A stretch of DNA of 64,000 nucleotides. It comes from Bradyrhizobium icense (GTDB lineage Bacteria > Pseudomonadota > Alphaproteobacteria > Rhizobiales > Xanthobacteraceae). Positions 20,485 to 26,451 of this stretch are shown here, in pieces. Made by a program: the position numbers and the translations under genes. The notes under the pieces were generated by a model. That model was not told where the DNA came from. It searched no databases and saw nothing but the letters and a program-made list of their open reading frames with translations. Location of the stretch: assembly GCF_001693385.1 (NCBI RefSeq), contig NZ_CP016428.1, forward strand, positions 3,286,001 to 3,350,000, written 5' to 3'. How positions within the stretch are numbered: position 1 is the stretch's first letter; every line of letters begins with the position of its first letter.

Positions 20485-22407
20485 TTAGCCAGCCAAGCTT
20501 CGCGTATTCGTAATTCCCAGCGCCTTGATGCGCGAGGCCAGCGTGGTCGGCTTGATGTCCAGCATCTCGGCAGCGCCGCCGGGGCCGAACACTTTCCCAG
20601 AGCAGGCCTGAAGCGCGGCGAGAATATTGGCGCGCTCGTGGGCGCGCATTTCCGACGCGGTCAAGACAACCGGCCGGGCATCGGCTTTCACGTGCGCCGC
20701 GCCGGGGGAGGGCTGCGCGCCGGATGTATCGGGCAGGTCAATGCGCAAGCGGCCGTTCTGCGCCAGGATCGCCGCGCGCTCGATCACGTTCTGCAGCTCG
20801 CGGACGTTGCCAGGCCAGTCGTAACGCGAAAGCCGGCGCGCATCGCCTTCAGATAGCCGCAGCCTGGATTTCAGCGCCTTGCTCTCGCGGGTCAAAAAGT
20901 GCTGCGCCAAGAGCGGAATATCCTCGCGCCGTTCGCGCAGCGGCACCGACTCCACCGGAAAGACATTGAGCCGGAAATACAGGTCCTCGCGAAATCGGCC
21001 GCGCTGCACTTCCTGCTTGAGATCGCGGTTGGTGGCGGCGATCACGCGCACATCGACCGCGCGGGTGCGCTCCTCGCCGACGCGTTCGAAATTGCCCTCC
21101 TGCAGCACCCGCAACAGCTTGCCTTGAAGTTCGATCGGGATTTCGCCGACCTCGTCGAGAAACAGCGTGCCGCCGTCGGCGAGCTCGAAGCGTCCGATGC
21201 GGTCGCGCATCGCGCCGGTGAAGGCGCCGCGGACGTGGCCGAAGAACTCGCTTTCAAAGAGTTCGCGCGGGATCGCGGCACAATTGACGCGGATCAGCGG
21301 CCGGTCGCGGCGGCTGCTCGCCTCGTGGATGGCGCGCGCGATCAATTCCTTGCCGGTGCCGGATTCGCCGGTAATCATCACCGCGGCGGTGGTCGGCGCC
21401 ACCAGCTTGACCTGGCGCAGCGTCTTCTGGATCGCTTCGCTCTGGCCGATGATGCCGCGCGGGTTGGTCTCGATGCGGATTTCTTCCTGCAGGTAGGCAT
21501 TTTCCAGCTCGAGCCGCTCGCGCAGGCGATCGACCTCGGCGAGCGCTGCATGCAGCTTCTCGTCGGCCTCGCGGCGCTGGCTGACGTCACGGAACACGAT
21601 GACGGCGCCGACCACGACGCCGCGGTCGCGGATCGGCGTCGAGGTGTATTCGACCCAGACCGGCGTGCCGTCCTTGCGCCAGAACACCTCGCCCTCAACC
21701 TGGTGCACGGCGCCGTCGCGAAACGCCGCGTAGATCGGGCAATCGTGATCGGGATAGTGTCGCCCATCATGATGGGTGTGATGGACGATCGGGTGGATTG
21801 CCTTGCCGACCAGTTCTTCCGCACCCCAGCCCAGCATGCGCTCGGCGGCCGGATTGACAAAGGTGGTCTTGCCCTCGGCGTTGACGCCGTAGATGCCTTC
21901 GCCAGCGGCGCGCAGGATCAACTGGTTCTCCCGCTCGATATCCTGGAACACGCGCTCAACGCGCTGCCAGGTCGCGATCCCGCCGCGCATGTGGTCTTCG
22001 GCCGCCGCATCGACATAGCGGCGGCGGCGCGCGTCGAGATCGCTCATGGTGAGGAGCACCAGCGGGCGGCCGTCACCTGGCACGAGTGAGCCGGCATATT
22101 CCAGGCGCAGGCTTTGCCCAGTCGCGTGGCGCGGGGTCAGCGCGTTGGTCCAGTACGCGCCCTTGTCGAGCACGGCCTGCGTGAACACGATCAGGACAGG
22201 CAATTGTCCGGCATGCAGCGTGCTGACCTTGGTCTGGCGCAGCAAGGCGCGGTCATAGCCGAGCAGGGTGCAGGCGGCCGGATTGGCGTCAAGGATCTGG
22301 TCGGCATAGGGGTCCAGCAGCAGCGCTGGCTCGATCGCAAACTCGAACGCTGTGGCACGCAGTTCGACATCCTGCGGCGGGGCGGTTGAGCCGAGGGCCA
22401 GATCCAT
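20485..22407 (-). CDS. Sigma54-dependent activator with two PAS domains
   Basis: A 640-residue enhancer-binding protein. PAS domains lie at about 20-125 and 160-280; the second contains a His-rich segment ([16 protein letters not shown], 209-224) that might bind a metal or haem. A coiled linker (285-310) leads to the AAA+ domain: Walker A GESGTGKE (347-354), the sigma54-contacting loop GAFTGA (394-399) and Walker [11 protein letters not shown] Fis-type helix-turn-helix is at about 600-635. There is no receiver domain, so the PAS domains probably sense the signal. It is divergent from the cyanate transporter operon, whose promoter is sigma54-type, and likely activates it. Confidence 0.95.
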
Positions 22408-22438
22408 CCGGTCGATACTCCGAAAATTCGTAATTGAA

Positions 22439-22471
22439 CTACGACATTTCGTGTATCACGAATTCTCGTAG
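22439..22471. promoter_or_regulatory. 33-bp dyad, likely binding site of the sigma54 activator
   Basis: An inverted repeat with arms CTACGACATTTCGTG and CACGAATTCTCGTAG around TAT; 13 of 15 arm positions are complementary. It lies 32 bp upstream of the activator gene and 55 bp upstream of the -24 element of the operon, so it is placed both for activation and for autoregulation. Fis-type HTH activators bind dyads of this kind; the assignment is inference. Confidence 0.65.
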
Positions 22472-22526
22472 CCTCCAACTTCAGCAAAATCCCTGTGATG
22501 TCAGAGCCATTGCCGCAGAACGGGGC

Positions 22527-22542
22527 TGGCATGTGCCTTGCT
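22527..22542 (+). promoter_or_regulatory. Sigma54 (-24/-12) promoter of the cyanate operon
   Basis: TGGCATGTGCCTTGCT matches the RpoN consensus (TGGCAYG-N4-TTGCW) at every key position. The -12 GC is 34 bp from the ATG of the binding-protein gene, and a divergent sigma54 activator gene is adjacent, supporting function. Confidence 0.85.
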
Positions 22543-22574
22543 TAATTAGGGGGCAACGTCGCGCAGGAGGTCTG

Positions 22575-24963: not shown

Positions 24964-24967
24964 CACC

Positions 24968-25894
24968 ATGACAGACAAGTTCATTTCCATCGAGGGTATC
25001 GCTCGGCGATACCCGGGCGCGGGTGGCGGCGAGACCACGATCTTCGAGGATCTGTGGCTGTCGATGAAGCGCGGTGAATTCGGTTGCGTGATCGGGCATT
25101 CCGGCTGCGGCAAGACGACGGTGTTGAACATCCTGGCCGGGCTCGACGAGCCGAGCGAGGGCGCCGTCATCGTCGACGGACAGGCGATCGAAGGCACGAG
25201 CCTCGATCGCGCCGTGATCTTTCAGAGCCATGCGCTGTTGCCGTGGCGCACGGTGCTCGGCAACGTCGCCTATGCGGTGACCTCGAAATGGCGCAACTGG
25301 GATCGCGCCAAGGTGAAGGCGCATGCGCAGAAGTTCATCGATCTGGTCGGGCTGACAGGTTCCGAGCACAAGCGGCCGTCCGAATTGTCCGGCGGCATGA
25401 AGCAGCGTGTCGGCATTGCGCGGGCGCTCTCGATCACGCCAAAGATCATGCTGATGGACGAGCCGTTCTCGGCGCTGGATGCGCTGACGCGCGGCACGCT
25501 GCAGGACGAGGTGCGCCGCATTTGCCTCGAGACCGGACAGACTGCGTTCATGATCACCCATGACGTGGATGAAGCGATCTATCTCGCCGACAAGATCTTC
25601 CTGATGACCAACGGCCCCGGCGCCGTGCTCGCCGAGATCGTGGAAAACCCGCTGCCGAAGGATCGCGGCCGCATCGATCTGCACCGCCATCCGCTGTACT
25701 ACGCGGTGCGCAACCACATCGTCGATTTCCTGGTCAGCCGAAGCAAGACGTTTGCCGCCACCGTGGCCGACCATGATCCGCGCAACGTGCCGGTCGTGCG
25801 GCCGGGCAAGCCGGAACTGGTGCTGGCCGCGGAGGCGGAGGATTCGATTGAGGCGTCATGGCCGGGCTTGGCCCGGCCATCCGCATCTTCCTAG
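24968..25894 (+). CDS. ABC transporter ATP-binding protein, nitrate/cyanate type
   Basis: A 308-residue ATPase of the NrtD/CynD/SsuB group. Walker A is GHSGCGKTT (43-51), the signature LSGGMKQRVGIARAL and Walker B IMLMDEPFSALD, then the switch His in FMITHDVDEA. The C-terminus is about 40 residues longer than usual, and the last 13 residues (ASWPGLARPSASS) are encoded by a palindromic repeat in which the stop codon lies. The gene starts 4 bp after the permease and is clearly co-transcribed. Confidence 0.94.
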   Translation: MTDKFISIEGIARRYPGAGGGETTIFEDLWLSMKRGEFGCVIGHSGCGKTTVLNILAGLDEPSEGAVIVDGQAIEGTSLDRAVIFQSHALLPWRTVLGNVAYAVTSKWRNWDRAKVKAHAQKFIDLVGLTGSEHKRPSELSGGMKQRVGIARALSITPKIMLMDEPFSALDALTRGTLQDEVRRICLETGQTAFMITHDVDEAIYLADKIFLMTNGPGAVLAEIVENPLPKDRGRIDLHRHPLYYAVRNHIVDFLVSRSKTFAATVADHDPRNVPVVRPGKPELVLAAEAEDSIEASWPGLARPSASS

Positions 25895-25942
25895 GCAATC
25901 CAAAACAAGACGTGAATGCCTGGGACAAGCCTGGGCATGACG
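25854..25942. repeat. Palindromic repeat, CGTCATGGCCGGGC family
   Basis: The ends are CGTCATGGCCGGGC and the imperfect complement CCTGGGCATGACG, with GGGCTTGGCCCGGCC at the left. It overlaps the 3' end of the ABC ATPase gene and ends 20 bp before the cyanase start. Elements of this family are common in Bradyrhizobium intergenic DNA. Confidence 0.72.
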
Positions 25943-25962
25943 AGCACACAAGGAGACAAGGC

Positions 25963-26451
25963 ATGAAGCGCGAAGACCTCACCGAAAAGCTGCTCGACAT
26001 CAAGCGCGAGAAGGGCTGGAGCTGGAAACACGTCTGCGAAAAGATCGGCGGCTATTCGGAAGTGCTGATCGTCGGTGCCATCATGGGCCAGATGAAACTG
26101 ACGAAGCCGCAGGCCGCAAATGCCGGCGAATTGTTCGGGCTGTCGAAATCGGAAGTCGCGATGCTCAACGAGGTGCCGATGCGCGGCACCGGTACGCCGA
26201 TGCCGCCAACCGATCCGTTGATCTACCGCTTCTACGAAATGGTGATGGTCAACGGGCCGGCGTGGAAGGCGCTGATCGAGGAGGAGTTCGGCGACGGCAT
26301 CATGTCCGCGATCGACTTCGACATGGCGATCGACCGCGTCGCCAATCCGAAGGGCGACCGGGTCAAGATCACGATGTCCGGAAAATTCCTGCCGTATAAG
26401 TACTACGGCGCCAGCGGCAACGTGCCGGAATATGGCTTTAAAGAGGAGTGA
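25963..26451 (+). CDS. cynS: Cyanate hydratase (cyanase)
   Basis: CynS converts cyanate and bicarbonate to carbamate and CO2, the carbamate then giving ammonia and CO2. The 162-residue product has the N-terminal helical domain (1-80) and the C-terminal catalytic domain. The catalytic residues R89, E92 (YRFYE) and S115 (GIMSAIDF) correspond to Arg96, Glu99 and Ser122 of the E. coli enzyme with constant offset. AAGGAGA precedes the start; the longer frame upstream is repeat sequence. As last gene of the sigma54-controlled transporter operon it supplies ammonium from imported or metabolically generated cyanate. Confidence 0.97.
   Translation: MKREDLTEKLLDIKREKGWSWKHVCEKIGGYSEVLIVGAIMGQMKLTKPQAANAGELFGLSKSEVAMLNEVPMRGTGTPMPPTDPLIYRFYEMVMVNGPAWKALIEEEFGDGIMSAIDFDMAIDRVANPKGDRVKITMSGKFLPYKYYGASGNVPEYGFKEE

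Follow-up and report, generated by a model that had tools for sequence, protein, structure and literature searches.

A CynF-type activator, a sigma54 promoter and a putative three-box enhancer at the cyanate locus of Bradyrhizobium icense

The cyn locus and its activator

What controls the genes for cyanate uptake and degradation in Bradyrhizobium icense? In E. coli, the cyanase genes of cynTSX have a dedicated regulator of the LysR type, CynR, which to our knowledge belongs to a protein family other than that of the activator CynF and is not sigma54-dependent. The locus considered here lies in a stretch of 64,000 nucleotides of contig NZ_CP016428.1 (positions 3,286,001 to 3,350,000; called the window, whose own numbering is used throughout). 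An original prediction, made from the letters of the window, had proposed a cyanate operon controlled by sigma54 and by a dedicated activator with PAS domains. It is very probable that the locus is cynF-cynABDS and that CynF, acting on upstream boxes, activates a sigma54 promoter for cyanate uptake and degradation. The genes are as follows.

20485..22407, minus strand: cynF-type activator, 640 amino acids (gene call, domain and family models), with PAS-A at about residues 19-56 (PAS_8 19-56), PAS-B at 170-277 (PAS_9), AAA+ and lid at 319-559
22575..23957, plus strand: cynA-type binding protein (NMT1_2), 460 amino acids (domain match; twin-arginine-like signal RRAFLKSVG read by eye)
24124..24963, plus strand: cynB-type permease, NrtB-like (TIGR01183 ntrB, 228.5 bits, cut-off 209.05)
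24968..25894, plus strand: cynD-type ATPase, NrtCD-like (TIGR01184 ntrCD, 286.1 bits, slightly below the cut-off of 291.8)
25963..26451, plus strand: cynS cyanase, 162 amino acids (NF002773, 220.3, cut-off 150; TIGR00673, 153.5, cut-off 113.3)

The start codon of the permease was picked by eye, and the model and locus comparisons took this protein from its second codon. The start codons of cynF and cynA are 167 bp apart, and the genome search gave a single cyanase match in this genome.

Gene calls and domain matches bear out the proposed PAS-PAS-AAA+ activator with intact GAFTGA, divergent from the cyanate operon, and the domain search reported no receiver domain, as had also been proposed. 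The Sigma54_activat match covers residues 319-485, GAFTGA occupies residues 394-399 and the Walker motifs are intact. The C-terminal helix-turn-helix is assigned by likeness alone: no such family was reported for this protein, PF02954 is precomputed for some relatives and the C-terminal columns are conserved. The activator scores below the cut-offs of the NorR equivalog model (369 against 476 bits, no GAF domain reported), the NifA equivalog model (367.8 against 528.85 bits) and the ntrC model (319.7 against 558.6 bits, no receiver domain reported), and is assigned to none of them. It is unique in its genome, where the second-best match is confined to residues 288-551 (52%).

A known system in Pseudomonas

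The novelty implied for a dedicated sigma54 activator of cyanate genes does not hold, since CynF and cynFABDS of P. pseudoalcaligenes (oleovorans) CECT5344 are already published (PMC6627978); the window locus adds a member of this system in Bradyrhizobium. According to that paper, CECT5344 carries a sigma54-dependent Fis-type activator gene divergent from an operon ordered binding protein-permease-ATPase-cyanase, with a sigma54 site proposed before cynA, and a similar gene distribution is found in alpha-, beta- and gammaproteobacteria. The mutant work reported there establishes the requirement for CynF, induction by cyanate and repression by ammonium: CynF is essential for cyanate induction, and for the cynF mutant Table 1 of the paper gives no detectable cyanase with any of its nitrogen sources. 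The terms "PAS domain", "enhancer" and "upstream activating" are absent from the main text of the paper.

The link to CECT5344 is indirect and passes through a locus of P. chengduensis (L080). This locus has the published CECT5344 order, with glutamate synthase genes (gltBD), cynF, cynABDS, and hemE after cynS; its activator is 59% identical to that of the window over residues 28-632, and between its cynF and cynA lie three boxes and a TGG-N9-TGC site. Gene order and identity thus point to orthology of the window activator with CECT5344 CynF. The window differs from CECT5344 by its genus, its flanks and the distance between start codons (167 bp against 268 bp reported in PMC6627978), and its -24/-12 site is stronger than that of L080. 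A regulator tested by mutants in Pseudomonas would thus extend to Bradyrhizobium-like bacteria.

The sigma54 promoter

22527..22542, plus strand: sigma54 -24/-12 promoter TGGCATGTGCCTTGCT (pattern match and comparison; transcription start expected at about 22553)

The element TGGCATGTGCCTTGCT is the sole mismatch-free match to TGGCAYGNNNNTTGCW in the window, where matches with at most one mismatch number 3 against 1.25 expected; within the window alone, this is modest evidence. For comparison, 80 related loci were chosen by activator similarity alone (the best 80 of 580 candidates), and 79 intergenic regions were read, that of the window included and those of L027 and L030 left out at contig ends. 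The best site agrees with at least 10 of the 12 consensus positions in 74 of these 79 regions, while shuffled regions average 1.43 and reach 5 at most. After thinning to one locus per 80% activator identity, such a site is found in 28 of 32 loci, against 1.0 in shuffles. Because it is kept across the compared regions and is rare in shuffles, the predicted promoter is real and not due to chance. The strong RpoN site proposed ahead of the operon is therefore upheld as a near-consensus site, and a sigma54 promoter ahead of cynA is present as far as sequence can tell.

A putative enhancer of three boxes

The part of the system that is newly resolved here, and that the original prediction did not contain, is a candidate enhancer of three regularly spaced boxes, kept across distant bacteria.

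22420..22431, plus strand: putative enhancer box 1, CCGAAAATTCGT, 7 of 8 positions of ACGA-N4-TCGT (pattern search)
22441..22452, plus strand: putative enhancer box 2, ACGACATTTCGT, 8 of 8 positions, 21 bp after box 1
22458..22469, plus strand: putative enhancer box 3, ACGAATTCTCGT, 8 of 8 positions, 17 bp after box 2

These palindromes precede the -24 element by about 60-120 bp. With a box defined as ACGA-N4-TCGT and at most one mismatch allowed in the region counts, at least three boxes occur in 58 of the 79 regions (0.035 in shuffles) and at least two in 74 (0.66 in shuffles). The 32 loci below 80% activator identity give at least three boxes in 20 and at least two in 27, the shuffles giving 0.0 and 0.3. 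The spacing is nearly fixed, at 17 bp (n = 66), 21 bp (n = 39), 22 bp (n = 18) or 23 bp (n = 4), and in nearly all regions that have boxes the sigma54 site follows the start of the third box by 58-85 bp.

A probe pairing two exact boxes at the 17-bp spacing was searched for, together with a reversed control, in 149 genomes of the family. It matches in 29 of them, once in each, and the control nowhere; all 29 sites adjoin CynF, 33-94 bp from the matched cynF start, and the only perfect match in the genome of the window is that of the window itself. These results strongly support a dedicated enhancer which, at that stringency and in these genomes, would have a single target, the two-box core being one site per genome wherever it is matched. 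The protein bound there would be CynF. Candidates for further targets in the genome were discarded: another pair at 21 bp (one mismatch) falls inside an open reading frame of 395 amino acids, and with at most two mismatches the 21-bp spacing gives 5 matches against 6 in the reversed control; the 17-bp spacing gives 5 against 5. Among the open-licence papers that literature searches listed, such boxes are unmentioned in titles and abstract openings.

A parallel for this arrangement is NorR, whose three enhancer sites at norVW are described as essential (PMC2941729). Like the window activator, NorR is a receiver-less sigma54 activator, and its three sites correspond in number to the putative ones of the window; it differs by a GAF domain with non-haem iron, where the window protein has PAS.

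Linkage of the activator to cynS

The pairing of activator and operon, which the original prediction had proposed to look for in other genomes, recurs widely. Among the 72 loci in which the DNA upstream of the activator reaches 4 kb or more (eight with less were set aside), a divergent cynS is present in 69, a binding protein in 63 and both in 62; the loci without cynS are L069, L070 and L078. In six loci of Methylobacterium/Methylorubrum and in one of Skermanella, CynF and cynS are divergent and the flank that was fetched shows no match to a transporter, and therefore the partner of CynF is cynS. Among the family genomes, cynS is divergent in 46 of the 47 with CynF, the exception (G059) having no cynS match.

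CynF is not the sole solution for the regulation of cynS: cyanase is above the cut-off in 103 of the 149 family genomes and CynF in 47, at a limit (E up to 1e-150) that would miss a more distant CynF. Two genomes of the genus of the window (G138 and G064) have no CynF at this limit; their cynS has a SAICAR-synthase-like gene nearby, and inspection by eye of the stretch read showed no transporter gene, the contig of G064 ending about 0.6 kb upstream of cynS. Two other genomes, G095 and G123, have a stop codon within the CynF frame (TGA and TAG, respectively); they may hold pseudogenes or sequencing errors.

Proposed mechanism and points that weigh against it

The genes, the domains, the promoter, the boxes and the pairing of activator and operon are seen in the sequence; the mechanism proposed from them is the following. 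CynF dimers would bind the three ACGA-N4-TCGT palindromes, 21 and 17 bp apart, where the AAA+ hexamer would assemble. Cyanate, or a product made from it, would act on the PAS domains, most likely on PAS-B, which is thereby indicated as the part of interest for the cyanate signal. The GAFTGA loops of the hexamer would then touch the sigma54-RNA polymerase at 22527-22542 and open the promoter, and expression of the operon would let the cell import cyanate and degrade it to ammonium and CO2. It is probable that CynF tunes its own gene as well, because boxes 1 and 2 begin just 13 and 34 bp from the cynF start codon.

Several observations weigh against this reading. That the transporter is specific for cyanate is deduced from linkage, and the permease passes a nitrate-permease model. 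The best promoter match of L080 has only 8 of 12 positions, the lowest among loci with cynS (L041, L047 and L079 have 9). Among the 79 regions, no box is found in L070, L071 and L079 and only one in L053 and L073, and the exact probe, with zero mismatches, finds no match in 18 of the 47 CynF genomes. The PAS-B core described below is generic to kinases and to activators of other context. Some related activators adjoin other genes: sugar-transport-like genes (by eye) in L069, and the nit1C cluster, which is divergent from the activator in L078, of Pseudomonas, and in L081, on an Acinetobacter plasmid. Lastly, cyanase of CECT5344 is also induced by cyanide and is absent with ammonium (PMC6627978, main text), so that cyanate may not be the sole signal.

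The nit1C case has a counterpart in NitA, the activator of the nit1C cyanide-assimilation cluster, which is a sigma54-dependent Fis-family protein according to PMC11049912. NitA resembles the window activator in this respect and differs in serving a nitrilase cluster, nit1C, which does not adjoin the window activator. The nit1C-linked loci have two perfect boxes (L078) or two boxes with one mismatch (L081). A Loktanella plasmid (L082, 5959-13483) carries one CynF-type activator, with the variant GAFGGA, between cynABDS and nit1C, with two boxes on the cyn side and none on the nit1C side.

The histidine-rich PAS-B core and the signal

21739..21795, minus strand: codons H205 to C223, with the PAS-B core H205, H209, H210, D214, Y218 and C223 (conservation; coordinates derived from the open reading frame)

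The original prediction had singled out a His-rich stretch in one PAS domain. The letters are present as quoted, at residues 209-224; as a special mark, the stretch fails. Over 83 aligned activators, H205, H209, G215, Y218 and C223 are kept in 100% and H210 in 99%, while the other histidines vary (His in 45% at 213, 72% at 217 and 54% at 221). Of 247 PAS stretches in wider relatives, the 120 best-scoring of 5962 found, 205 have the whole core, and these relatives include proteins with a histidine-kinase ATPase domain (e.g., P0043). A motif unique to a cyanate sensor is therefore ruled out; because the core is common to kinases and to activators of other context, it is a PAS subtype that carries no cyanate mark and names no ligand. 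A PDB sequence search gave 48 distinct sequences for the activator at E up to 0.001 and 73 for PAS-B at E up to 1, the best 60 of the latter being mostly PAS-type sensors by name; the HxxxHH...C core was not found in the five alignments inspected among these matches.

This generic core favours another explanation of the signal, in which the activator senses nitrogen or redox status, PAS-B binding a cofactor or metal in a general way and cyanate specificity coming from uptake and metabolism. In its favour too, CECT5344 has a basal level of cyanase when nitrogen is absent or supplied as nitrate or glutamate, and shows none with ammonium, whether or not cyanate is present; against it, activity with cyanate is about 15 times that without nitrogen (all from the main text of PMC6627978), and the activator is tightly linked to cynS. 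We regard this explanation as possible and rather unlikely.

Cyanate and cyanide are metal ligands, and with four such residues so close together a metal could be bound there. A speculative and improbable proposal is that PAS-B of CynF holds a metal at H205/H209/H210/C223 (with Y218) that would bind cyanate or cyanide directly. CynF and NitA would then be pseudohalide sensors of a metallo-PAS type, organised like NorR, with a metal in the input domain, an AAA+ ring and an enhancer of three sites. If this were true, this PAS subtype, which many kinases share, would be an unrecognised family of metal sensors.

Which activator acts at the promoter?

The ammonium control in CECT5344 (PMC6627978, main text) would also fit a role of NtrC, which would drive the operon at the sigma54 promoter, the divergent protein merely repressing or modulating it. 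One clade of relatives lends itself to this explanation, having a broken GAFTGA loop and yet keeping the boxes and the -24/-12 site. However, the CECT5344 cynF mutant lacks detectable cyanase, the window activator has an intact GAFTGA and 79 of the 83 aligned activators keep GAFTGA or GSFTGA, which makes control by NtrC quite improbable. It is highly improbable that the boxes serve CynF autoregulation only and that the operon has a sigma70 promoter: the box pair does lie close to the cynF start in the 29 genomes with probe matches, but 74 of 79 regions have the sigma54 site and the third box keeps its distance from it.

The clade with a broken loop is a side lead that may prove more valuable than the original prediction. 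The CynF match starts after PAS-A in 10 of the 47 CynF genomes; nine of these ten short CynF were read in detail and have an in-frame stop 16-46 codons before the match. The GAFTGA motif is broken in all ten: it reads GAFAGA, AAFPGA or GAFEGA, and six genomes belonging to one genus lack the loop. The survey of this motif covered 33 of the 47 genomes; among the 23 others examined, that of the window included, 22 keep GAFTGA or GSFTGA, and L122 has GAIPGA with PAS-A present. L075 has lost PAS-A (match from residue 157) and has GAFPGA. The broken-loop members (L095-L101, L117-L119, L075 and L122, PAS-A being lost in all but L122) are 12 sequences that form one group in a quick tree (SH-aLRT 96, with long-branch warnings). 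The gene rpoN is present in 13 of 13 genomes checked, ten of them with short CynF. The promoter regions read, which come from nine short-CynF genomes and from L075, keep two or three boxes as well as a site with 10-12 of 12 positions. A -24/-12 site beside a loop-less activator could reflect a partner activator or repression, both possible. The short CynF had been considered as proof that PAS-A is dispensable; this was dropped, as the same proteins have also lost GAFTGA.

Neighbouring genes

A four-gene run at 15008-19132 encodes an OsmC-like protein, an acyl-CoA dehydrogenase-like protein (by eye), a rhodanese and a second NMT1_2-type binding protein (17750-19132). A -24/-12 site with one mismatch lies ahead of this run, at 14951-14966; CynF boxes are absent there, and shared control with the cyn operon is not claimed. 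Both binding proteins of the window have a long N-terminal extension (22575-22860 and 17750-18040), with C-x-C-G-x-H ahead of the twin-arginine-like signal (RRAFLKSVG), and a similar extension occurs in L116. About 1.3 kb separate the activator from the second binding protein, with a short outer-membrane-like open reading frame and a small secreted-type one (19277-20351, both by eye). A binding-protein paralogue directly adjoins the activator in L007, L012 and L027; in L007 and L027, unlike in the window, the activator and the second binding protein are adjacent.

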